Source of the DNA: Undaria pinnatifida
Taxonomy: Eukaryota; Sar; Phaeophyceae; Laminariales; Alariaceae
Direction of reading: 5' to 3'
DNA: 64,000 bases
Assembly (NCBI GenBank): GCA_012845835.1
Contig: JABAKD010000030.1
Location: 9,089,805-9,153,804 of the forward strand
Shown: positions 40,494 through 63,327 of the stretch, piece after piece
Layout of the letters: each line of letters begins with the position of its first letter
Numbering within the stretch: position 1 is the stretch's first letter
Made by a program: the position numbers and the translations under genes
Notes under the pieces: generated by a model
Databases searched by the model: none
Seen by the model: only the letters and a program-made list of their open reading frames with translations
Told to the model about the DNA's origin: nothing

Positions 40494-43400
40494 CTACTTG
40501 GCGGCCTTCTTCGCTTTGTGCTTGGCGATACGGCGACCCGTGCCGCGGATCTTCAAGCCCCTGTTCTTGGCTTCCTTGATCTGCTTGCGGGAGGTCTCCT
40601 TCTTCTCCTGCTCGTACGTAAAAAGTGGTGGGTGGGGTAATGTATACCATGAGTCGGGAGCAGAGAGCGCGTACAAGCATACACATAATAACGTAAAATA
40701 CAAAAAGACACAAACGCGCGCGCATTCATCCATCCGGTCAATCGATGCATATAATACTTCCAAGTATTACTCTGGACGGAAATTTTACGAGTATCTTTTG
40801 GTTTTTATACGGATTATGAAAATCCCAACCCTCCGCATATTTCCGCCCAGAACGGTAATAAGAAAGACCAGGTATAGCTCAACCGGTGGTGGGCATGGTC
40901 CACATTAATTTCGCTGTTCCACAATACACAGGCCGTCGATGTGTGTGCGTACGTTTGAACTATTTCATTATGTTGACCTCCAAGCACAAACACTAAAAAC
41001 CGTCGCGGTTCTATATAAGTCCCCCTTCACTCACAGCGGCAGCGCGAGTAAACATAACACACCCCGAGACACAAAGCGAAACCACCCAATGACCGGTCGC
41101 ACGAACAGCATCATGGAACACATGACCGAGCGAATGAAACCATTTGGAACGACAAGTTTTGATGAAAATCTCCCATCTCACAGCCAAGGTGACGTTTCAA
41201 GACCACATACTAGGCATAAAAAAAAACAAATGGAATGAACTACGTCACTAACAAAACCATAGAATGAACGAGCAAAGACGACTAACCGTGAGACCGGCGC
41301 GAGCCAGGCGGTGCTTGGGCTCGAATTTCTTCATGTCCTCAAGGCTGTCGTAGATAAGGCAGAACCCCGTGCTCTTGCCGCCACCGTAGTGGGTCCGGAA
41401 GCCGAAGAGAGTCACCGTCGTCGGGTCAGACACACGAAACTTCTGCTCATAGAGATAAAAAAGAGGTGGGCGGACCGAAGAAGGGTGGTGCCATGCATTC
41501 GATCGCGGATATTCAAAAAAAGAGAGCAGTAATTGTCAAAAAAAGCCCAGAGGGACTACAGGCGGGTGGGGGTCGGGGGGAGCAAGCATTCGAGTACATG
41601 CATGCACGACGGAGGGTACATGCATACACGACAGAGGTGTTGAGAAAGAACAAAAGAGGGACATAACTTCTCATCCCCGCGACATTAGTTGGGTTGTATA
41701 CTACAGTAATTGCGTGGACTGCATCAGCAAGTACGCCACACCAAACCGACGCCGACCCCAGTACGAAGTACTTCCAAGTATACAACAAATCATTCAACAC
41801 ATAAAATCTCCAAAAAACCTCACAGGAACGTCATTAACGGTGGGTCTAAAAAGCAGAGCCCAAAGCAGTTGCTGGTATGCACCACACTACGGGAACACTA
41901 TGAGAACAGAAAGGAAAGGGCCACTAGTAAGGTAAATACATGCCAGGTATGCACCACGGGTGCTGGAGACTGGCCACTTGCTCCCCATGCCCACAACGCA
42001 CCGTAGGATATGTATACCGAGCCGAGAAAAACTCCCGTCTAGGCTTGTGCGACACTATTTTCAACGAAGTAATACCTATGTGTACGTCAGCTGTGGGCGC
42101 GACCGATCTAGTATACGTGGTAGTCGATACGCAGTTTTGCAGGCTGCTTTTTACATAGCGAGCCGAAAAAACGGCTCCACCACACACATTCTTGCTGCTT
42201 ACGTTGACTGGTGTGCTTCGCTACACAGTCGCAGGGGACGAAGGCATGCCTTCCGTGGGTAGAAAGAAAAATTACTACATTACTTGGAAGCCTACTCGAG
42301 CCTATAAACACACCCACGTGAGTCAAAAGCACGACCACTCCACAAATGGATAACGCTTACTTCGTTCTCAGTGTTCGCGACTAAGATTTAAGCTTGTCGT
42401 CATCGTGGTGCAACGCAGTTTTCATACCCAGTACATACCGCAAAAAAGCGGAACAGTTATGATATACACTCGTTACCACTCGAGAAATGGATGACGCTTA
42501 ATTCGTCCTCATTGTTTGCGACTAAGATTGAAGCTTATCGTCATCGTGGTACTACAGAGCGACGTTACAAAACAAAACGTAACGCATTTTGGAGCATGAG
42601 GACCTTGCTTGGGTAGTCCAGGTTCGCCACGTAGCTAGTTAACTCATAAAGCACATTCTCACCGGAAAAAACAACATAACATAATCACCGAAAAAGAAAA
42701 AAACAAGGAGGGGCAGCACATCTAAGTAACACACAGGCTGGACCGCTCGAGAAATGGACGACGCTTAATTCGTCCTCAGTGTTTGCAACTAAGATTAAAG
42801 CTTACCGTCATCGCGGTGTAGCGCGGTTGTCATACCGAGTACAATCCGCAAAACGCGAAACACGATTAATAAGCTACACTATATAACATGCACTCGTTAC
42901 CACTCGAGAATTGCATGACGCTTAATTCATCCCCAGTGTTAGCAAATAACATTAAAGCTTATCGTCATCATGGCACTACAGAGCGACGATACAAGACAAA
43001 AAATGTTTCAGACAAATAAGGAGCTCGCCAGAGTAATCAAGGTTCAATAGCTACTGTAATGGAACTAAAAAAACATCCTCACTGAAAAACTAACCCACTA
43101 AACATCCTAACCGGAAGGAACAAACAAAATAAATACGGAGGGACACCACGTTTCAATAACACAGGCTGGACCGCTCAAGAAATGGATGACGCTTAATTCG
43201 TCCTCAATGTTTGCGACTAAGATTAAAGCTTGTCGTCATCGCGGTGCAGCGCCGTTGTCATATCCAGCACAAATCGATAAACACATACCTGGTAGTTAAA
43301 TAGCTATAATATGCACTCTTTGCCACTCGAGAAACGGATGACGCTTAATTTGTCCTCAGTGTTTGCGACCAAGATTAAAGCCTATCGTCGTCGTGGTACT

Positions 43401-46400
43401 ACAGAGCGACGCTACAAAACAAAAAATTACGTATTTTAAAGCATGAAGAGCTCGCCTGCGTAATCAAGGTTCGCTAGGCAAATGCAACTCATAACGCTTC
43501 TTCACTGAAAAATTAACCCACTAAATATCCTAACCGGAAAGAAGAAAAAAATGGAAAACGGAGGGACACCACGTTTCAATAACACAGGCTGGACCGCTCG
43601 AGAAATGGATGACGCTTAATTCGTCCTCAATGTTTGCGACTAAGATTAAAGCTTGTCGTCATCGCGGTGCAGCGCCGTTGCCATATCCAGCACAAACCGT
43701 TAAACACACTTAATAACTACAATATAAAACATGCACTCGTTACCACTCGAGAAAAGGATGACGCTTAATTTGTTCGCAGTGTTTGCGACTAACATCAAAG
43801 CTTCTCGTCATCGCTGTGCAGCGCAGTCGTCATGCCCAGTACAAACCGCAGAATAGCTACTGGTATACGATATGCACTCGGTACCACTCGAGAAAAAAAT
43901 GACTCTTAAGTCTGTCCTCAGTGTGTGCGACTGAGATTAAAGCTCATCGTCATCGAGGTAATACCGAGCTGCGCCATCAAACAGATAACCATTGTAGAGC
44001 AATCATCGGCTAGCTATTCGCTGTAAATATTAATAGGTTCGCCAGCTGCGAGCTAGAGAAAGTTCTACGACGGCAATAACTGTCACCGTATATATCAGAT
44101 TTTGTCCGCGTCAGAAACGGGTTTTATAGTTTCTGCGCACAGACCAATCAACGTCACCCTGTCGACCCTGGTACAAGCTACACTGTAGTTCCAAGGGGAG
44201 TCGCCGACCTATATATTTAATGAGGGCACACACCCAGTAATACGCGCGATCTGAGTATCACACACAGCTGGCAAAGATGAGGTTCGACACTATCTTCGAT
44301 CTCACAGCTGGAGTGTAATTTTATATTTATAATATATATAGATGAGCAACAAAACGACGCTGTTTGATCAACACGAGCTGAACCGCTCGAGAAATGGATG
44401 ACGCTTAATTCGTCCTTAGTGTTTGCGACTAAGATTAAAGCTTGTCGTCATCGCGGTGGCCGGCCCATGCACCAAAAAACAGGCGCTAATCCAGCAAATC
44501 CATTCAATCTCAATCAAACAAGAAAAACTTAAACCTAAAAGCAAAACGTAACAAAGGTAATCTTCCGTTTCCTGTAAGACATGATACCAACCAAGGGGCA
44601 GGCATCGACCGACGTCACGGCGTGGACCACTCGAGAAATGGATGACGCTTAATTAGTCCTCAGTGTTTGCGACTAAGATTAAAGCTTGTCGTCATCGCGG
44701 TCTACCGTCTTCGTCGATTCGAGCCCTTACGGCTTACATCGCTATGCCAGTGAAGTCTGGGGTAACAACAACACAAGTCTACAGCAATAGAAGGTAACAA
44801 TTGGGGCACCGCAACAACCAGAACACCCCCACAAGCTCAATCGAGACACTGCACTCGCTACCGACAACAGCGCACTCTCCGAGGTACGGCATATTATACC
44901 TGGTATATAATTAACATGTCACTCAAAACGGCGAATGCTACACAGCAAACCCAAAACTCCTTCAGAAGCCGAGCATTCTTATCCTGCACAGGGCAGAACA
45001 TCTCTCCCCCCACGTGACCCCCCCGTGCTCGCCGGGCACATCCAACGCGTCCAACGCTTTTCCCATGCTCACCGTAATCAAGACTCATGCCACGTTTCGT
45101 TGCGAGATTCGGTTCAACGAGCGCATCCTTGGATGGGTGGGTGGGCATGGGCCTCACGACACCAACCTTCGATAATGGCCCGGTGTCCATCCGTCGTCGC
45201 AAGCACGTGAATCTACAGATGGGTTCCGTTTCTTAACGGGGGCCTTTAGTATAGGTTGCACCTTTCTCGCTCGCAAATAGAGTTGCCATTGCAAACTAAA
45301 TCGATAGATCTGAGCCTGTTGCACCTTTCTCGCTCGCAAATAGAGTTGCCATTGCAAACTAAATCGATAGATCTGAGCCTGTGGGAGATTTTTCACTGCC
45401 ACAGTATGTCGACCGTTAGAAAATGTCTACTGCATGGTGTATAATAACCGAACACCATGGGTAAGAACAGGTCTGACTCATGCCGCCAACTCTTACGTAC
45501 GCTGTACGCTTGTGACTCGGGGCCTTGGTGAAACTCAAGCGCACATCGCAGTCATTTAAGGCAGACGCAAAAGGCAAACATGAAAGCGAGCGCACGCCAT
45601 GTTGTTTACCTCTCGTACAGGACTATCAACACAAACAGAAACAAGCTATGCATTAGTTAGTGCCATAGTAGAATGCCCTCTCGTACTTCGACACATACGA
45701 CACGAAAATAGGAAGGCGTATTCCTTGATTGATTGTCCTTTTACGATCGACGAATCCACGAGAACATAACCACATAATTCTAATTTTTTAGCATAGAACC
45801 CACTTTGTCGGAGTCAAACTACTCATTATTAGCGTGGATCATTATGAGTCCCACAAGAGTTCAGATCAACCCTTTCGCTAGCGGAAAAAAAATCCTACAC
45901 AGCTTCAAGCTGCTTGTCCCCCAAAACGGGTGTGACTTCCAACGGGGATAAGGAGGCGCCGCAGCGGAACGACATCGTACACTATCCTTATTAATTAATA
46001 CGCTAAGGATGGTCGTGAAGGTGGTCGTGACGTTTTGGATCTTTGAAAAATATCTTGGTTAAAACACCCCCCCCCAAAAAAGCGGCGACTCCCGAGCTCC
46101 ACTCGGCCTCAGGCGGCCTCGCGGTGCCGCCACGTCCCATCCGCACAGCAGCACTACGACATGCCGGCGAAAGAACGGCCGTCGGTGCCCCACCTCGGCG
46201 AGGGGGGAGCGTGGAAATCGCCCTCCCGGGGACGGCTCGCTTGCCCCCCCCCTGCTTTTTCTTCGTCGCTGCCTGCTAATTTTCTTTTTTCGAACTCCCA
46301 ACTATATTGTGAGGAAGACTAAAAATGTTGAACAACAAATGCTACTCGAGTTATTGCTTTTTGGCCACTTGGGCCATGGACACAGCCATGGACACGAGAC

Positions 46401-49400
46401 CACAAGCGCGCCTGCGTCAACAGCAATCACACAACACCAGGACCAAACACAGCAGCGTCCAGCCGTCGCCGCTCGCCGTGCGCAGAATTGGCAAAGCGAG
46501 CGCTTTTGGCTTGGCCTAACCAGCCCGAGAGCATTGTAACCAACAAATCGGCTGCTGCTCGCCTGTCAGGTGTATTGCTCTAGGTACTGCTGCATTGCTG
46601 CATTGCTGTACTGGGTAGGTTCGTGGGTGCATGGTGGGTGGTGTTCTGCTGTGCTGTACGTACTGCTGCACTGCTGTTCTGATGTACGTACTGCTGCACT
46701 GCTGTTCTGCTGTATGTAGTAAAGGTTTGGTCGGTGATGGGTGAAGCGTGCACTGCGTCGTCCGTGGTGGGTGGGTGGGCCGTTCTGTACGTGGGAGTCT
46801 TTTTTTTGCCGTTTCCTGTTTCATAAGAACCAACCAACTGACTGCGCCCCGCGTACCAGGTGTATACTGCTGTATGTACTGCTGTATGCACTGCTGTTCT
46901 GCTGTGCTGTACGTACTGCTGCACTGCTGTATGTAGTAAAGGTTTGGTCGGTGGGTGGGTGCAGGGTGCACTGCGTCGTCCGTGGTGAGTGGGTGGACCG
47001 TTCTGTACGTGGGAGTCTGTTTTTTGCTGTTTCCTGTTTCATAAGAACCAACCAACCAACTGCGCCCCGCATACCAGGTGTATACTGCAGCAGCTGTAAG
47101 TACTGCTGCACGGGTGTCCTGATGTACGGACTGCTGCACTGCTGTTCTGCTGTATGTAGTAAAGGTTTGGTCGGTGGGTGGGTGGAGGGTGCACTGCGTT
47201 GTCCGTGGTGGGTGGGTGGGCCGTTTTGTACGTGGGAGTCTTTTTGCATCCTGTGGGAGATGAACCCTTTTTTTTGTTTCTACAATTTAATACCGGCCTC
47301 CCACTCACTGGTGCTTGGGAGTACCACCGTCCCCACTGCTGCACTCCTCTGTCCTTTACTACCGTACGTACTACTGCTGCCGTGTTATCTCTTTTGTTTT
47401 GCAAAACTTACATACAATACAGAGGATGATACCTTTACTAGCGTACGTACGGCGGCATTGTCGTACTGCCCTGTTATTATTTTGTTATTTCAGTACTTAA
47501 TACAGAGGATACAGCACCAATTTGTTTTTGTCCGCCATACCGGCCGGCAACTGGCATATTTCGGTAGTACCACTATTAATAGTCACAGGAAAAGGCAACA
47601 TACGACACCCCCTTCGTATATAATGCGTGCCCAACACGCGCACGCTCGGAGCTTTGCCACTGACCTTTGCCATCATCTCCCCGAGCTCGGTCTTGGAGAC
47701 GTTCGCCACGCCGGGGTGGATGATGTCCACCACCTGTAACGTTTTCAAAAGCCAAGAAAAAAACGAGCGCAGCAGATAAGACACGCGATGAGGAAGGAGG
47801 AACCGTGTGAAAAACGAGCGCGCGCAACAGCAGTACGTGTCCGGCTTTCAGATTCGGAAGCTGCCATAGCAGCCATACGTAGTAACTCTGTGAACCGGGA
47901 GATTGGCGGTATACATGCACGAGCATGACCCCCGCTTCCAACGCGTAAACCAGCAAGAAATTATTTAGCAACTGCTTTGCTTTGCGGCGACCAAAAACCA
48001 TAAACCAGTTTGGCCGTTAAGCATGTCTTCTTAAAGTGTCCATCTACCGATTACAAGATTGGCCAAAATAAGCAGTCCGGGCTAAACGGTCAGGGTGGGA
48101 GTGTCCGCCGTACGACGTCATGAGCTATACGGCATGCGCACAGCATGCCGATACTCGCTTGCTGCGCGCTCTTCATACACGTTTGATAACATCGATAACA
48201 TCGCACTTCTCTCGCGTTTTTTGTCAATACAAACGAACCCCCAAAATGACAAAACATGAACCCTTGTGAGACTTTCAGAGGGAAAAAAACGTCCAAAATA
48301 ATAAGGAGCCGATCACAGCATCGGCCACACCAAGCGGCCGCCGGGGTTAATGACGTGCAAGGATGCGCCCGAATCGCGGGGCAAGAACCTGTGCGACACG
48401 CACTCAGCATGAAAACGAAAATACACGCAACGCCCGCTACGACAGGGTAGCATAGTTTGCTCAAAGAGTGTTTCTGATCGACGGATGCTCCTCAACCCAA
48501 CGCCGTTGGAATGCTAGTTGTGCTGTTACAATTGCATTTGCAATTATATTTGTCGTACATATAACTATTACTAGGCCAAGATACTGGTCATCGGGTTGTA
48601 CTTTTCAGTTTTGCTCAAGCGTCAGTTAGGGTCATGTATTGTATTGTACAGTATACAACTCTTCAAATGAGGAACTTCATAAATGTCGACATTTGTACCA
48701 TTCTTCTGGTGCTGTACTGGCTCACGCTCTATGGGTGAGGTGCCCCTGTCGCGCTCTTTAGGTCGCTATACGCTAAACCTGCCCCCCAAACGGGTTCATA
48801 ATAGGTACTCTTTCAAACGACCGACGTTTTCCTTCGTGGCCAACACGTGTCAATAGCACATGTCCCGACAGCAATAAACGGACACCCGAGAGCTTTCGAG
48901 AATACACCCAAGGCAGGGACCCAATTCCGACTTCCGAACGTCAGTCACAATAGGAAAAGGGCCAGCTTTTCGAGGGCTGTCTGATGGAGAACTGGCGGTT
49001 ATCGCGTCGACCACCAAGAAGCATTTAACAGCTTTCACAGCTTCGGAGTCTTCAAAATAAGCGCACGGCATGCCAGGTACCAGGTAAAGCAGTAGGCACC
49101 GGGACGGGGACGCAAAAATCTCGCACTACAAACTACTATTTAACGGGCTGTGGAAGCTGGACGCGTTGTGGGTCGCGGTGAAGGGCACTGCCATCTAATT
49201 CCTGGTACTGCTGTAGACTCATCAGCGACAGCAGTGCTGTGATCTACTGCTATTTCTATACGGGTTGTGAATCAGGTTGTAAAGGGGGGGTTGGGTGAGT
49301 TGTCAGGACATAACACAAGCCCTTCTTCCCCTTATCTAAGGTGAGTCGAGCACTCGACGATCAAACGGACCGGCAACAGAGGGAATGGCGTGCCGTGGGT

Positions 49401-50561: not shown

Positions 50562-53500
50562 ATGTCGTCTAATTCTCCATCTCCTGGTGGCGATGCACCA
50601 GAAAGCGGAGCAGCAGCTCAAGAGCAGCCGCCGCCGAGCTCTCCCGCGGCTGGTCTTCCGTCACCTAACAACGACAGCGACGTCGCTGCTTCTCCTCCGA
50701 CAGCAGACGGTGCTCGAACCTCGCCCTCTGCAATCGGCGATATGCTTAGTTCCCCCGATAGAGGAGGTCCATCTAACCCACGGTCTACGGATGGTTGTGA
50801 CGATGACGATAGAGACGCAGTTGGATCTCCAGCCAGGTCGCCTCCTCCTACCCCTATGACCGATTTTAGCCCTCCCCGCAGCTTCTCGGGCTCGATTCCG
50901 AGGACTCCGTCGTCGATGGGCAGGAGCTTGCCCGGCACGCCGAGGACACCGTTTACGCCCATGGACATGCAGGTAGGTTGCTGGTGTTTATTGTCGTGGG
51001 TTATGGTGGTTCACGAGTATCTGTCAGCTGTCGGCTGGCCGAGAAGAAGGCCGTTTCTTTTTTGTTGTGTTCTTTTGATCTTTGAAACGGCGCGTTTTTC
51101 TGTCTTGTACCTGGTATTAAAAGTCTTACTGCTGTCGCTGTAGGCTGTGGCGGCATGGTTCCTATTAATACATACAAGCAATGATGTGCTTGCCTCGGTG
51201 CGGCCGTGGGTGCTTCGGGATTGGTGAACCCTCTGTCATAACAGTAATAAGCTACCGTAGGTGCTCTTGGGCGTACTGCTGCTGCACTCGGTGCTGTATC
51301 TGTGTGTACCGAGTGTGTACAATGATGTGCTTGCCTCGGTGCGGCCGTGGGTGCTTCGGGATTGGTGAACCCTCTGTCATAACAGTAATAAGCTACCGTA
51401 GGTGCTCTTGGGCGTACTGCTGCTGCACTCGGTGCTGTATCTGTGGGTACCGAGTGTGTACTGGCGAACGGGTCGGTCTCCAGGCACTCGCCTAGAGTGG
51501 GCGCGAAAACTGCAAGACAGCAGCACAAACGAACAAATACAATATTAGACTAATAGACAGCACACAGCAATCTGTACGCGCAGCACGAGTGCGCACCAGT
51601 GCGTACTCGCGCATACTACTTGTACAGGCCGGAGAGCCTTCACCAGATTACATCCCTTTTTTTATCCTATTTTTCGTCTTCCTCGATTCCTCAAGCGCGC
51701 ATCGTTCGCTGACCTCTCTTGCCTTCCCCTCCCCCCCCCCCGCCCCCCCCTTCTTTCTCCCCACTCCCCCGTGCCCCCGCCTCTGCTTCTTCCAGTCCCC
51801 TCTGTCCCAGCAGAACTCCAACCCGCTCCCCCGAGGCGATCTCGGCCGCCGTGCCGCTACGCTTGCCGCGCTCAGCAGCGGCGGCTGCAGCATCAACGGA
51901 AGCTTTGCCGCCGGCCTTGCCCCCCAAAGCCCACCCTCAAAACCTTCGAGGATGAGCGTCGGCAGCGGCTCTCCGCGATCGCTGCCAGACACGCCGGGCT
52001 CCCACGCCTCGTCTAAAAGGAGCCGCACGAACTGGAACGACAGGAGAAAAGGGCCAGGAGATGGACGGGGTGGTGGTGGTGGTGGTGGTGGTGGCGGTGG
52101 CGGCGATGGTGGTGGTGGTGGTGGCGGTGGCAGCGATGAGGAGGAGGAGGAGGATGGAGATGGACGCGGTGGTGGAGGAGGGGGTGGGGGTGGGGACGGC
52201 GGTGATCCGCCAGGGTCCCCGGGAGCGAACCCCAGCGGCCCGGGTGTATTGCAGGGGCAGGAGAGGGCGGTGATCTGGGGCACGGACGTGAACGTTGTGG
52301 AGTCGATGGAAAAGTTCAGGCAGTTTTTGTTGGAGTTTTGCCTCGAGGGTGAAGATGAGCCGCTCTACAAGTCCCAGCTGGAGGAGATTCATAGAACGCA
52401 GGAATTCAACATCAGCATCAACTGCAAACACCTCCACAGCTTCATGCCTTCCCGCAAGCTGTACCAGCAGTTGGTCCACTATCCGCAGGTGACAAAAACC
52501 GGCCCCCCTTCTCCAAAAAACGATCCAGTCGCAGGCGCGATTCTGCTAGTTAGATTGCTGCGGTGGTGGCACTACCCTGAGAATTGATGTTCCACTTTCG
52601 TCAGGGGCGTGCTCCCCCCTCGCAGGGATTTCGAACTTCCCCGACAAAAAATATCTTGCGGTTGCCTCCGCCTTGCTCGCGATTGCTCACAGTCCCGTAC
52701 GTCTGTAGCTCAAGAATCGTGTGCCTCATCGCGCGCTGCGCCGATACTGTACTTTACGAGTCTGCTGTATGGTAGTTATTTTGTCCTATTGTTATACTCA
52801 AACCTTCCCCCTCCCCCGTTGCTCTCGCCTACCTGGCTCTACAGGAGATCGTGCCGATAATGGACCTTGCGGTGAACGAAGAGTTCACGAGGATGTACTC
52901 GGAGGAGGAGCTTATGGGGGCGCGGAGGATACAGGCGAGGCGGTGGTCACCTTGCTGGTGTTGTGTTGTCTTGTCTATTCTGCCGCGGTATGATTCGTCC
53001 CGGTCTCCCGCCGGAGTCTTCTTGGTTGCCAAAAATACTCAGCTTTTCGTATGGCGTTTTCGTGTTTTCACGTTGCGGGTCGAAGTTTTTGGTTTTGTAC
53101 GGTCGACCCGTCCCGCGCTTAGGCGGCGCTTCGAGCACTGCAGCTGCGGCTGCCAGGTTTCTGCCGGGTGTGATAGCTGAATCTGATTGGTGTTCCTCGA
53201 GCTTGTGTGTGGGGTGGCTCGGGACTAAGGTCGACGGGGGGGGCATTCGGGGGTGTGGGTCGTTGGTGTCGTTCGGTGCAGGATATGGACGATCTCGATG
53301 CCCGGCGACATCGATTTTGCTTTTTCACAACTATTCGAGCTGTTTTACGTTTTGCTCACGCGCACGGTTGCATCCCAACAGGTGCGCACGTATAACCTGC
53401 GGGAAGTGAAACCGTTGCGGAATCTGGACCCTCAGCACATCGACCAGATGGTGGCGCTCAGGGGAATGGTTATTCGCACCAGCCAGATCATACCGGACCT

Positions 53501-58370: not shown

Positions 58371-59180
58371 ATGGCGAACTCATCAAGCTCTAGTTTTGGG
58401 CTCCACCGTTTACTAGATTCCATTGGACAATGCTCTGGGTCTACCTTTCGCGTGTGGAAGGAAAGCTTCGAGCACGTCATCAACATCCATGCGCTGGAGC
58501 TTCTCACGGTCTCACGCGGATTGGCCGGCCAGTTGCTTTATTTATTTTTACTTATTGCTGTTAATATACAGCTATACCGCGCTGGTGACCAGACCCTCTG
58601 GCTGCTACTCTGGCCGACGTTACCGCTTGGGACAAGGCCGACAGCCGCCTCTACTCCCTCCTGTTCTTCGCGACTACCGGCTCGGCGCGGATCACCGTTC
58701 AGGCTCACCGAAAGGCGGGCACTAGCGCCGAAGGCAACGGACAGTTGGCTTGGGCGGCTCTGAACGCGCGGTTCGACGCCCACACCCAGGAAGCTCGGCG
58801 TGCGTGACACAAGGAGCTCTTCGCCCTCACGCACGTTGCGGGTGGTGATCCTGTTGACTTCTTCTCCAAGGGATGCGAGCTCAAGCTCCGCCTCGAGACT
58901 CTGGGGGAGAAAGTATCAGACGAAGTCTACCTGGATATCATGCTCTCGGGCCTGACGTGTGCCCCGGAATTCCACTTTGCCCGGGAGATGCACTACCGAA
59001 CGAATTTACATCGGTCGACTGTCTTCAGGACACGGCCAACCGCTTCTTTGTGGACCAGCAGTCGCGCAAGGCGGCGGGGCCCGCGGTCTCGGGCAGGGGA
59101 GCCGCGATGGCCGCGTCCAGCAGCGACCAGTGCCACCGCTGCAAGAAGTTTGGACATTTCCAGCGAGACTGTCCGAAGTC
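58371..59180 (+). pseudogene. Copia gag, broken by frameshifts and a stop
   Basis: The frame starting at the ATG at 58371 encodes MANSSSSSFGLHRLLDSIGQ, then FRVWKESFEHVINIHALELL, typical of a copia gag start. Near 58530-58600, beside an AT-rich stretch, the homologous reading moves to another frame (TAWDKADSRLYSLLFFATTG). That frame hits TGA at 58805-58807. A second frame change near 58990-59005 leads into the main gag-pol frame. The nucleocapsid zinc knuckle is intact: CHRCKKFGHFQRDC, CX2CX4HX4C. Gag forms the virus-like particle that packages element RNA. Confidence 0.85.
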
Positions 59181-62100
59181 TGCGCAGCCGTCCCGACCGA
59201 CGAAAGGGAAGAAGCCAGGCAACAAGCGCGGAAGTGGGGGGAGTGGGCAGTCCAAGTGGTGCTCCTTTCACCGCACGAAGACGCACAGCGATGCTGAGTG
59301 CAAGGCTCAGCAGGACAACCGAAACAAGAAGCAAGAGGAGCTTCGAGGGTTGGCTGCGAACCTGGCACTGCTTCAGGCAGCCGGTCTGGCCAACTTCTCC
59401 CACTTGGCGCAGCCGTTTCAGGCGGCGGCGCCCCAGGCGTCTCAGGCCCCTTCGGAACCAACCACGTTCGGGTTCTCCTTCAACGCTCTCGCCGCCTCTG
59501 CAGGTCCTGCCGCCTCGCCGGGAGCTTCCGCGTCTGCCTCATCCGCGTCGTCTGCGCGGGACCACCACTTGCCTTCCGAGTACTTCGGTGCTTTCATGGT
59601 TTCTTCTGCGGCGGAGTCGTCGCTCGCTCCTTTTCGCTCCGACGGATCGTCCATCCTGATGTTGGTGGATAGCGGAGCGACGGACAATTACCGAGATTCT
59701 GCGCTTACGCCTGGCGTGCGGGCTCACATGCGTGACATTGAAGACCTTCGGATCCCGCTCCCGATCATTGCCGCTGGGCAGCACGTTCTTCACGGCGTTA
59801 CGACGGGGGTTCTCTTCGGCACGGTCGCCGACGACAGCGGCAACGATAGGCAAGTTTCCTTCCGTGTCGTCTTAGTACCGGGGCTGGGGACCAACCTCTT
59901 CTCCGTCACCGCTGCGCTGTCGAATGGAGTGACCTCCCTCTTCTATCCGGGCAACCCCAGGCTGGAGTCGGGGGACGTAGTCGTCCCGATGAAAATCCGA
60001 GGAGTGGATGACACCGGCAAGATCACTTGCTCCATCACCGTGAAGTTCGGCGCTGGGGATGGCGGTCGGCAGACCCTCGGGGAAGCTCCTGACGGCCTTG
60101 CCTTGCGGGTGGGGACTGCTAGTCTCTGGCACCGGCGCATGGGGCACATCAACAGCAAGAGCTTGGATGTGTTGAGGTAGGAGGCGGCCAACGGCATCGA
60201 TTACACCGGCGACGTGCAGGACTGCAGTGCGTGCCTTCTTGGTAAGAGCTCTCAACAGCCGCACCCAAAGCACGCCGTTTACGGCGTTTCACGCGCCTTT
60301 CAGATCGTATTCGTCGATACCCTTGGTCCTTTCACGCCTACCGCGTTGGGCGGCTTCAAATACGCCGCCAAGTTTGCCGACCAACACACCAAGTGGAAGG
60401 AGGTCGTCCTCATGAAGGATAAGACTTGCTCGACTGACGCCCTCGAGTTGTTCAACAAGGGGACCGTCATCCCCCGCAGCGAGCGCATCCACGTGCTTCG
60501 TGCGGATAAGGGAACCGATTTTACGAGCTCGGCCTACCGACAGTAATAGTACTGCCTGGACATCGGCATCCAGCTACAATTTGCATCGCCAAACACCCCC
60601 CAGCAGATCGGAGCGAATGAGCGTGCAGATAGGACGATCATGAACATCGTGCGTTGCATGCTCGCTGATTCTACGCTGCCGAGCCTTCTTTGGGGAGAAC
60701 TGATGCACACGGCGGTCTACCTGAGCAACCGGACTCCTCATGCAGCCTTGCACAACGGGACGCCGTACAAGGCGCTCTACGGCAAGGACGCGCACCTTGG
60801 ACACCTTCGGGTGGTCGGGGCACGGGCGTTTGTGCTTGAAGAGACGCACACCAAGAAGTTTGAAAGCCGTGCGTGGGAAGGACGGTTGGTGGGCTACAGC
60901 CTGGACAGCAAATCCTACCGTCTCTACAACGCTCAGACGAGACGAGTGCGGGAGATTCGCAACGTTATCTTCATTGAAACGACTCCCGCGCCGCCTTCGT
61001 TGGCCGAGCGTGGTTTTGACGACGGGGAGTTCACCTACGCCGACCAGAATGACATGATCCGAGATGTGCGCAACTACACCACCAACCACTCGGTCGATGC
61101 GGTTTCTCCCAATCATGCCGTCGGGGACCCGTCTGTTCTCGAGCTTGTCGAGGACATCTCCACGGTCAACAACCGTGACCTTGGGCTCAGCTCCGCTGAC
61201 CCTTCTCCTGCCGCCGAGGATGGGCCTGCGGACGACAGCCGTGCCTCGCCTGGAGGAGTCAGCCCTCCTGAGTCGGGTAACAGTGCACCTTCACCTGCCG
61301 CATCACCTTCCGGTCCTGCTCCGGCCGGGTCATCATCTGGTCCTGCGTCGCCGCCTGGTACGTCGAGTACTGGTTCTGCTCCAGTTGGTGCTGCATCGCG
61401 GGGTCGTTCCGCGTGTGGGCGTGGTTCATCTCGTGGTGGGCGTGACACCCGCGGTGGCTCTTCGCGTGGTGCATCTGCGCGGGGAGGGATCGCGACGCGT
61501 GGTGGACGTGGTTCGGTGAGTGGGCGTGGTTCTCGTGGTGGTCGCGGCTCCATGTCAGCCCCTCCTGACACCAGGATTACCCGGGCGATATCGCGCGTGC
61601 CCAACCAGAAGACCCTCAGCGAGCTTTGTTGGCTTTGGTACGCGTTTCCCGCGATGGGGGAGTTTCCTGACGTCGCGCACAGGGACGCCACATTGGGATT
61701 CACGGAATACGCATACGCCGTAGGGGCAGTGCAACCAGACGTTCCTCGCACCATCCAGGAAGCACGGGCCTCACCGGACGCAGCGAAGTGGAACGCAGCT
61801 GCCGAACGCGAGATGAAAAGCCTCAACGACCGCAAGGTCTACAAACTCGTCCCGCGCTCAGCCGTCCCTCCGGGAAGGAAGCGCATCAAATCCAAGTGGG
61901 TGTTCAAACGCAAGGCCGACGGCTCCTTCAAGGGACGTGTCGTAGCCCAGGGCTGGAACCAAGTTCCCGGACTCGACTGTTGCAGCACCTACGCTCCGGT
62001 GTGCAGGATCCAGAGCGTGCGAATGGTGGCGTGCATCACCGTGGAGTGCAACCTCATCTTCGACCAGAGGGATGTTTCTACCGCTTTCCTCTACGCGGAC

Positions 62101-63327
62101 ATCCAAGAACAAGTGTTCGTTGAACAACCACCCGGTTTCGAGGTCAAGGACAAGAATGGAGGTGACCTGGTAATGCAGCCGAAGAAGAGCCTCTACGGAC
62201 TTGCTCAAAGCCCAGGCAACTGGTTCAACACCATCGATCCCGTGCTTGTCGAGATTGGCTTCGTCGCACTCAAGTCAGACCCGTGCGTGTATTTGTACGA
62301 TCACAACGGGGCCAAGATCTACCTGACTCTCTACGTCGATGACCTTCTCCTGGCCGGCAACGACTCTAGCGCCATTTCGATGGTGAAAGGGAAGTTGCAA
62401 GAGCGCTTCAAAATGACCGACATGGAGGAAGCATCTCTCGTACTCGGAATGGAAATGAAGAGGGATCGCGAGGCAGGTACCTTGACTATTTCCCAAGAGG
62501 CATACTGCAAATCGATCCTTGAACGGTTCGGGATGTCGGACTGCAAGCCGACTAGTACACCTGTGCACGGCTCCGAAATCTCGAACAACCAGCCCGAGGA
62601 CACACGTCTCAACGAGGAGGAGACGCGCAAGTACCAAGGGATCGTCGGATCGCTCATGTACATTGCGCAAGTGCTGAGGTATGGCATCATGTACGCGACA
62701 GGCCAACTGGCTCGCCCGCTGGCGAAACCCAGCAAGGTGCATATGGTGGCGGCAAAGCATACTCTTCGCTATCTAGCAGGAACGACCAACTTTAGCATCA
62801 CCTACAAGAAAGGTGGTTTTAAGCTCGCGACCTTCTGGGACTCGAACTGGGCAAACAACCCTGACAACGGGAAGTCGACCTCAAGCTACGTGACGATGCT
62901 GGCAAACGCTCCGATGAGCTTCAGGTCGGGGCTGCAAGGTCTGACTGCGATGTCCATCATGGAAGCGGAGCTGGTCGCGTCCGCCCTGGCGATGAAGGAA
63001 GCAGTGTTTTGCTCAAACATGCTGACGGAGCTTGGATTCGGGAAGGAGTTTGCACAAATGCCTGTGTACTGCGACAACACGGCTACTCTACATGCATTGG
63101 GGAACCGGTCCTTCAGCTCGAGGACCAAGCACATCGCATTGCGCTTCTTCTTTATCCGAGAACTGGTAACGGAGGGGAGGATCTCCATCCATTACGTCCC
63201 GACGGAGGACAACCTCGCCGACATCGGTACAAAGCACTTCAACAATCACAGGTTCAAGCACCTTATGGACCTCATCAACAAGTTCGACGTCAACAAGGTC
63301 ACCACCGTCGAATTTAAAGGAAAATGA
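59181..63327 (+). pseudogene. Copia pol: protease, integrase, RT, RNase H, with three in-frame stops
   Basis: One frame runs to the TGA at 63325-63327. Protease: MLVDSGATDN. Integrase: HRRMGH and CSAC zinc ligands, then VFVDTLGPF, LRADKGTDF and the E of ANERAD as D, D, E. Stops: TAG 60178-60180, within the integrase zinc domain, and TAA-TAG 60544-60549, between the second D and the E. Between integrase and RT (61200-61560) is a Ser/Pro/Ala-rich then Arg-Gly-rich linker. RT: LIFDQRDVSTAFLYADIQEQ, SLYGLAQSPGNWF and YVDD at 62332-62343. RNase H: FWDSNW, MEAEL, YCDNTA and NLADIGTKHF. The RT-RNase H part is open. Confidence 0.95.

Follow-up and report, generated by a model that had tools for sequence, protein, structure and literature searches.

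What are the eleven short, closely similar units that stand in a row inside an intron of a ribosomal protein gene of the brown alga Undaria pinnatifida? They lie at 42334-44701 of a stretch of 64,000 nucleotides (nt) of contig JABAKD010000030.1, hereafter called the window, and a preliminary description had presented them as hairpin elements with covarying ends, fitting no named family, in an intron of RPS24. Judging from the sequence, we give a probability of about 60% to another reading, in which the array consists of tandemly duplicated genes for intronic guide RNAs of the C/D-box small nucleolar RNA (snoRNA) type, read in the sense of RPS24 and targeting large subunit (LSU) ribosomal RNA (rRNA); we regard such a C/D-like guide as a better account than the hairpin family. 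Box D, the defining feature of the class, is altered in every copy, so the array is filed as a C/D-like variant, which would work like a C/D snoRNA, and not as a proven member. If this is true, a guide-RNA cluster lying below the Rfam cut-offs names its own rRNA target, box D can drift beyond its consensus, and one intron can amplify a guide eleven-fold. A literature search of partial coverage returned no published report of the array.

The host gene was identified by its product, an S24e-domain protein whose amino acids 24-135 are identical to protein P0001 (labelled Undpi1, presumably for Undaria). Peptide-matched exons cover these residues, and amino acids 1-23 are without a placed coding stretch. 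The GT-AG splice sites were read from the sequence, and the location in an RPS24 intron is thereby borne out. The gene is on the minus strand, so that the units as listed are antisense and have to be reverse-complemented to give the sense RNA (coordinates in Table 1). The number and size of the units were also as first described: ten of 76 nt and one, c9, of 77 nt, all eleven in the same orientation. An ungapped scan of both strands of the window with the consensus detected no unit beyond these, and a covariance model recovered the same 11 and none else.

Read in the sense of RPS24, the consensus runs from the stem strand ACCRC, through an overlapping (R)CGAUGA and a middle part, to AGCGUCAUCCAUUU, CUCGA and the stem strand GYGGU. 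The terminal stem therefore lies outside the putative boxes C and D, and in 11 of 11 copies it is adjoined by a box C-like motif at a Hamming distance of 0 (c4), 1 (8 copies) or 2 (c6 and c9) from RUGAUGA. By alignment, the C/D model sR39 has GCGAUGA in its consensus too. PMC3542256 gives C/D snoRNAs a length of about 60-100 nt and an antisense element of 10-21 nt directly upstream of box D or D'. The units are within this range, if the mature RNA ends at the unit boundaries, and they have, right before the box D slot, an element that pairs over 14 nt, with one G-U, with the kelp's own LSU piece.

The consensus was compared with all 8000 nt of L060, a record in which Rfam recognizes complete small subunit, 5.8S and LSU genes. 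The best duplex joins unit nt 52-66 to LSU AAAUGGAUGGCGCUU; it has 14 Watson-Crick pairs and 1 G-U (score 28, next best 20), ends exactly before the box D slot, and is the best one for 8 of the 11 copies. Among 4000 dinucleotide shuffles run against the 6,200 rRNA nt of L060, a score of 28 was reached anywhere in 0.5% and in the slot in 0.025%. No other 76-mer of the intron, out of 186 scored, reached it, and the antisense strand had a maximum of 18. The duplex is unbroken in 8 of the 11 copies, the exceptions being c4, c8 and c9; guide letters are changed in c1, c3 and c6, yet the pairs became G-U.

For the kelp itself, the conserved LSU core has a single exact match in the Undaria assembly, within an LSU fragment of 491 nt (Rfam, 481.8 bits). 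When shuffles were run against this piece alone, the score of the kelp duplex was reached in 0.125%. The fragment corresponds to L066 1386-1876 on contig C19 (16 Mb), and full rDNA may be absent from the assembly. As for the other records, exact matches to GAAAATGGATGGCGCT were found in 33 stretches of the viral collection and, within a longer pattern, in 13 of the prokaryote collection. Twelve of these 46 were judged rRNA-like from their context, and Rfam was run on two, L060 and L062, the latter holding a complete 5.8S and parts of the other genes. L060, L062, L053 and L064 are filed as bacterial metagenome-assembled genome records yet carry eukaryotic rDNA or rRNA-like sequence, probably through binning contamination. 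An 18S pattern had no match, and a 28S pattern matched L001 only, which was not useful.

The better conservation of the core over the spacers, already claimed, is confirmed. Mean pairwise identity is 0.74-1.0 inside the units (4-nt blocks; the ten copies of 76 nt, without c9) and 0.24-0.53 in the flanks (10-nt blocks, ungapped 60-nt flanks, all 11 copies); c10 and c11 are 96% identical inside, with flanks at 28% and 17%. The array has tandem segments of about 423 nt, and between homologous segments the spacers are 66-82% identical, as against 79-99% for the adjoining units (13 pairs). Fisher tests were done on 9 of the 13 spacer pairs, the four involving c8 being left out. The unit changes less than the spacer in 7 of these 9 (P<0.03), and no difference was found for c1/c3 and c4/c6. 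Selection on an intronic RNA at the array is well supported. Copies c2, c3, c5, c7, c10 and c11 have 1-7 differences from one another and look maintained, whereas c1, c4, c6, c8 and c9 have 8-20 differences from every other copy; among these, c1 and c6 look diverged but with pairing kept, and c4, c8 and c9 look like decaying copies.

How would such a unit act? Assuming that it is transcribed with its host, the RPS24 intron would be spliced out and each 76-nt unit would close via its 5-base-pair (bp) terminal stem. Core proteins would bind the box C/box D region, with CUCGA presumably serving as box D, and exonucleases would trim to the unit ends. Nucleotides 53-66 would then pair with LSU rRNA at AAAUGGAUGGCGCU and direct 2'-O-methylation; the residue 5 nt before the box D slot, which is the first G of AUGG, is the one most likely to be methylated. 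What was initially taken for an inner stem, GATGACG/CGTCATC, is here read instead as box C opposite the guide with its match to 28S rRNA. Each of its two strands has its own reason to be conserved, so that their pairing may be incidental, or an off-state: the 7-bp box C-guide pairing could keep the unbound RNA closed.

Several observations weigh against a C/D-type guide. The sequence CUGA is found at box D in 0 of 11 copies (CTCGA in 9, CTTGA in c5, GTGGA in c1), box C is 1-2 letters off RUGAUGA in 10 of 11, D' is poorly kept (CUGA in 5 of 11), and the region before D' found no rRNA target (score 16). The covarying pair 4/74 lies where, as we assume, the bulge of a classical k-turn would be expected. 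A scan for canonical C/D RNAs gave 0 candidates on either strand of the intron (about 0.03 expected by chance). Rfam placed the units in no curated C/D family: it gave no match on the window at gathering cut-offs, none on the whole array at E≤10, and on the intron at that threshold two chance matches outside the array, neither of C/D type. Single copies did somewhat better. With c10, c4 and c11, 13 low-score matches were obtained at E≤10, 12 of them to C/D-box families (1 of 1 for c10, 7 of 8 for c4, 4 of 4 for c11) and 10 of these 12 on the sense strand; they are far below cut-off (E 1.7-9.6), individually not significant and without a control, and we take them as a lead only. The target is open to similar objections. 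With the kelp's own LSU sequence the duplex shrinks to 13 Watson-Crick pairs and 1 G-U (unit nt 53-66), for a score of 26 rather than 28, which the best of the 186 other intron 76-mers equals and which shuffles reach over the L060 rRNA in 1.9% anywhere and 0.175% in the slot. Finally, the complementarity between guide and 28S was spotted first and tested afterwards, as one of several readings tried.

The C/D-type reading has a more specific form, in which a functional guide RNA of brown algae had its box D fixed as CUCGA before the eleven-fold amplification in one ribosomal protein intron. We put it forward tentatively, as possible but doubtful. The kelp C/D protein core would then tolerate or prefer a box of which just the final GA is left, and amplification would offset a weaker particle or give a high dosage for one LSU site. 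The published annotation of Undaria counts 367 transfer RNAs (tRNAs), 93 rRNAs, 43 small nuclear RNAs and 4 microRNAs; the word snoRNA does not occur in the main text of the genome paper, whose small nuclear RNA count may include some (PMC7058681).

The alternative that survives best, though we find it unlikely, is a structured hairpin RNA belonging to no named class, whose 5-bp, 7-bp and apical 7-bp stems are selected and whose 28S match is due to chance. RNAalifold does return these three helices on the sense strand, the 5-bp one being the end stem (-15.0 kcal/mol, covariation term -0.37), with 198 of 209 cells paired (94.5% in the terminal stem), and does worse on the listed strand (-10.2 and +1.04). 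The ends had been described as covarying between ACCGC/GCGGT and ACCAC/GTGGT; the letters are right, but the change amounts to just one base pair, 4/74, the sole pair altered on both sides (A-U in 4 copies, G-C in 4, G-U in 2, U-U in 1). Covariation is not clearly above that of shuffles, which were as high or higher in 44 of 500 for the covariation score, 102 for the cells paired, 259 for pairs with two-sided change, 47 for cells with two-sided change and 454 for pair types. Single copies fold on the sense strand with z-scores from +0.2 to -2.3. Moreover, paired and unpaired sites change at an equal rate (0.077), and the guide and the box D slot, which fill the 10-nt 'bulge' of the fold, belong to the slower blocks (0.065 and 0.055 changes per site, respectively). 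The sequence is as well conserved as the structure; this is expected of a guide RNA, not of a hairpin alone. The hairpin reading is supported in part only.

Two further tests favour pairing without favouring a strand. In a placement null, pairs are kept more often than expected on the sense strand (P 0.003 when changes in stems and loops are treated separately, 0.037 when they are not), but the listed strand passes at least as well (P 0.0003 and 0.002), which means that this null does not pick a strand. The stem can be extended into the flanks, also for copies whose flanking sequences are unrelated. With left/right swaps on the sense strand, P was 0.143, 0.004, 0.003 and 0.017 at 8, 12, 16 and 24 nt, and against random intron flanks of 16 nt the combined P was 0.006 (5 flank classes) or 0.019 (8 classes). 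The listed strand again behaves similarly at 16 nt (P 0.009 for swaps, 0.008 and 0.021 for random intron flanks), and with 60-nt flanks the effect is not significant (z +1.5 to -2.2). Support for an external stem is thus moderate, length-dependent and present on both strands. An argument for the sense strand from a tilt towards G-U was dropped, a similar transition bias being present at unpaired sites. Indeed, transitions among the copies are skewed to C>T/A>G on the RPS24-sense strand, 17 against 4 at unpaired sites (24 A+C and 14 G+T sites), and this skew might reflect transcription-linked mutation.

That the array is a relic, made of snoRNA pseudogenes which lost box D before the expansion and owe their near-identity to recent duplication or gene conversion, seems to us improbable. 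It would account for the altered box D of all 11 copies, the five long-branch copies and the tandem segments. The guide changes in c1, c3 and c6 that retain pairing argue against it. In addition, the likeness of c10 and c11 next to the divergence of their flanks means that a recent duplication of a longer segment fails, and that one would have to invoke a conversion confined to the 76 nt.

A mobile or satellite element, or selection at the DNA level on protein-binding sites, without any RNA function, is very improbable: the tandem arrangement and the terminal inverted repeat ACCRC/GYGGT would fit, but a search of the genome (511,146,479 bases, E≤10) with c7 gave 10 matches, all in the RPS24-intron array and none at unrelated sites, all copies have one orientation, and target-site duplications were not seen by eye at c9, c10 and c11. 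Presence at one locus speaks against a transposon or a dispersed satellite; the search detects close copies only, as c9 was missed, so that diverged copies elsewhere could be missed too. A decaying satellite, which the preliminary description had kept as an option, suits c1, c4, c6, c8 and c9, but neither the other copies nor the single locus.

A dispersed repeat does lie within the array. The genome search with the whole region found, besides the window itself, another 46 matches (40 of 3717 candidates were scored), all in query 1790-2047 (window 44089-44346), which explains the long spacer between c9 and c10. This repeat is about 240 bp long, and most of the 46 matches are 87-91% identical. 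In the window copy the likeness begins at TCAGATT, whereas the seven loci compared also have in common, further upstream, a stretch ending in CTG; the window copy looks truncated at that point.

Other identities were considered and rejected. H/ACA snoRNAs have two hairpins, a hinge ANANNA, an ACA tail and 120-160 nt (PMC3542256). The unit has 76 nt, and its consensus 3' end, CTCGAGYGGT, is without ACA by eye. A microRNA precursor has conserved arms that form a long, nearly perfect duplex of about 21 bp. Helices of 7 and 5 bp and a 10-nt bulge, as found in the unit, do not make one, and the only microRNA that Rfam reported in the intron was a chance match to mir-297 outside the array (E 8.8). 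No tRNA was found. A hammerhead-like string CUGANGA...CGAA was discarded since the supposed core letters vary among copies. A resemblance between the listed strand and the 3' portion of U6 found no support in Rfam, and a reading as Sm site or spliced leader, to which c1 alone comes near, was dropped. The unit cores had 0 exact matches in the viral and prokaryote collections, and none in phage records.

Elsewhere in the same intron are a perfect 63-bp doublet (45255-45382) and a 218-bp tandem unit in 2.7 copies (46653-47245). In the rest of the window, a frame at 51496-52584 has an MCM N-terminal domain (E 1.1e-11) and is probably an exon of a replicative-helicase gene, and long reading frames at 58858-63324 have zinc knuckle, gag pre-integrase, retroviral SH3-like and RVT_2 domains, the set found in Copia-type retrotransposons.

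Table 1. Positions, in the window, of the RPS24 intron, the units of the array and the parts of unit c7
Feature	Position	Strand	Remarks
RPS24 (S24e) host intron	41443..47664	-	6222 nt, GT-AG
RPS24 coding stretches flanking the intron	47665-47733, 41287-41442, 40497-40607	-	peptide matches, aa 24-135
Unit c1	42334..42409	-	long branch; guide pairing kept with 2 G-U; box D slot GTGGA
Unit c2	42475..42550	-	near consensus
Unit c3	42742..42817	-	near consensus; guide pairing kept with 2 G-U
Unit c4	42899..42974	-	long branch; canonical box C AUGAUGA; guide broken at 2 places
Unit c5	43170..43245	-	near consensus; box D slot CTTGA
Unit c6	43322..43397	-	long branch; guide pairing kept with 2 G-U
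Unit c7	43593..43668	-	near consensus; query of genome search
c7, box C-like GCGATGA	43659..43665	-	unit nt 4-10
c7, putative guide AGCGTCATCCATTT	43603..43616	-	unit nt 53-66; complementary to LSU rRNA AAATGGATGGCGCT
c7, box D slot	43598..43602	-	CTCGA where CTGA expected
c7, terminal stem, 3' strand	43593..43597	-	pairs with 43664-43668
Unit c8	43742..43817	-	long branch; guide broken once; two flanks like different spacer types (by eye)
Unit c9	43883..43959	-	77 nt; long branch; guide broken at 2 places
Unit c10	44382..44457	-	near consensus; flanks differ from those of c11
Unit c11	44626..44701	-	near consensus; flanks differ from those of c10
Dispersed repeat between c9 and c10	44089..44346	.	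not part of unit

Among known systems, the array is closest to the C/D snoRNAs that guide 2'-O-methylation of LSU rRNA, with which it shares the length, the terminal stem, a near-canonical box C beside that stem, a guide before the box D slot, and a place on the sense strand of an intron of a ribosomal protein gene. It differs from them by CUCGA instead of CUGA, a box C that is mostly RCGAUGA, and eleven copies per intron. The target neighbourhood is possibly shared with SNORD50 (U50), as we presume from a C and a G at a distance of 15 nt which fit the sequence around AAAUGGAUGG. The box D of U50 is canonical. The sites of U50 in 28S rRNA are given in PMC7277114 as C2848 and possibly G2863. 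SNORD95 (RF00189) was the sole Rfam match of c10 at E≤10, and covers the whole model with ends at about those of the unit, but at E 3.6 and 12.1 bits, against a cut-off of 55, it is no evidence of homology. As to the tandem arrangement, a parallel is offered by the mammalian SNORD115 and SNORD116 arrays, also made of many near-identical intronic C/D RNAs. There, each intron of a repeated non-coding host gene carries a single copy, and an rRNA target is mostly lacking, whereas in Undaria all copies are gathered in one intron of a coding gene, with a match to rRNA.

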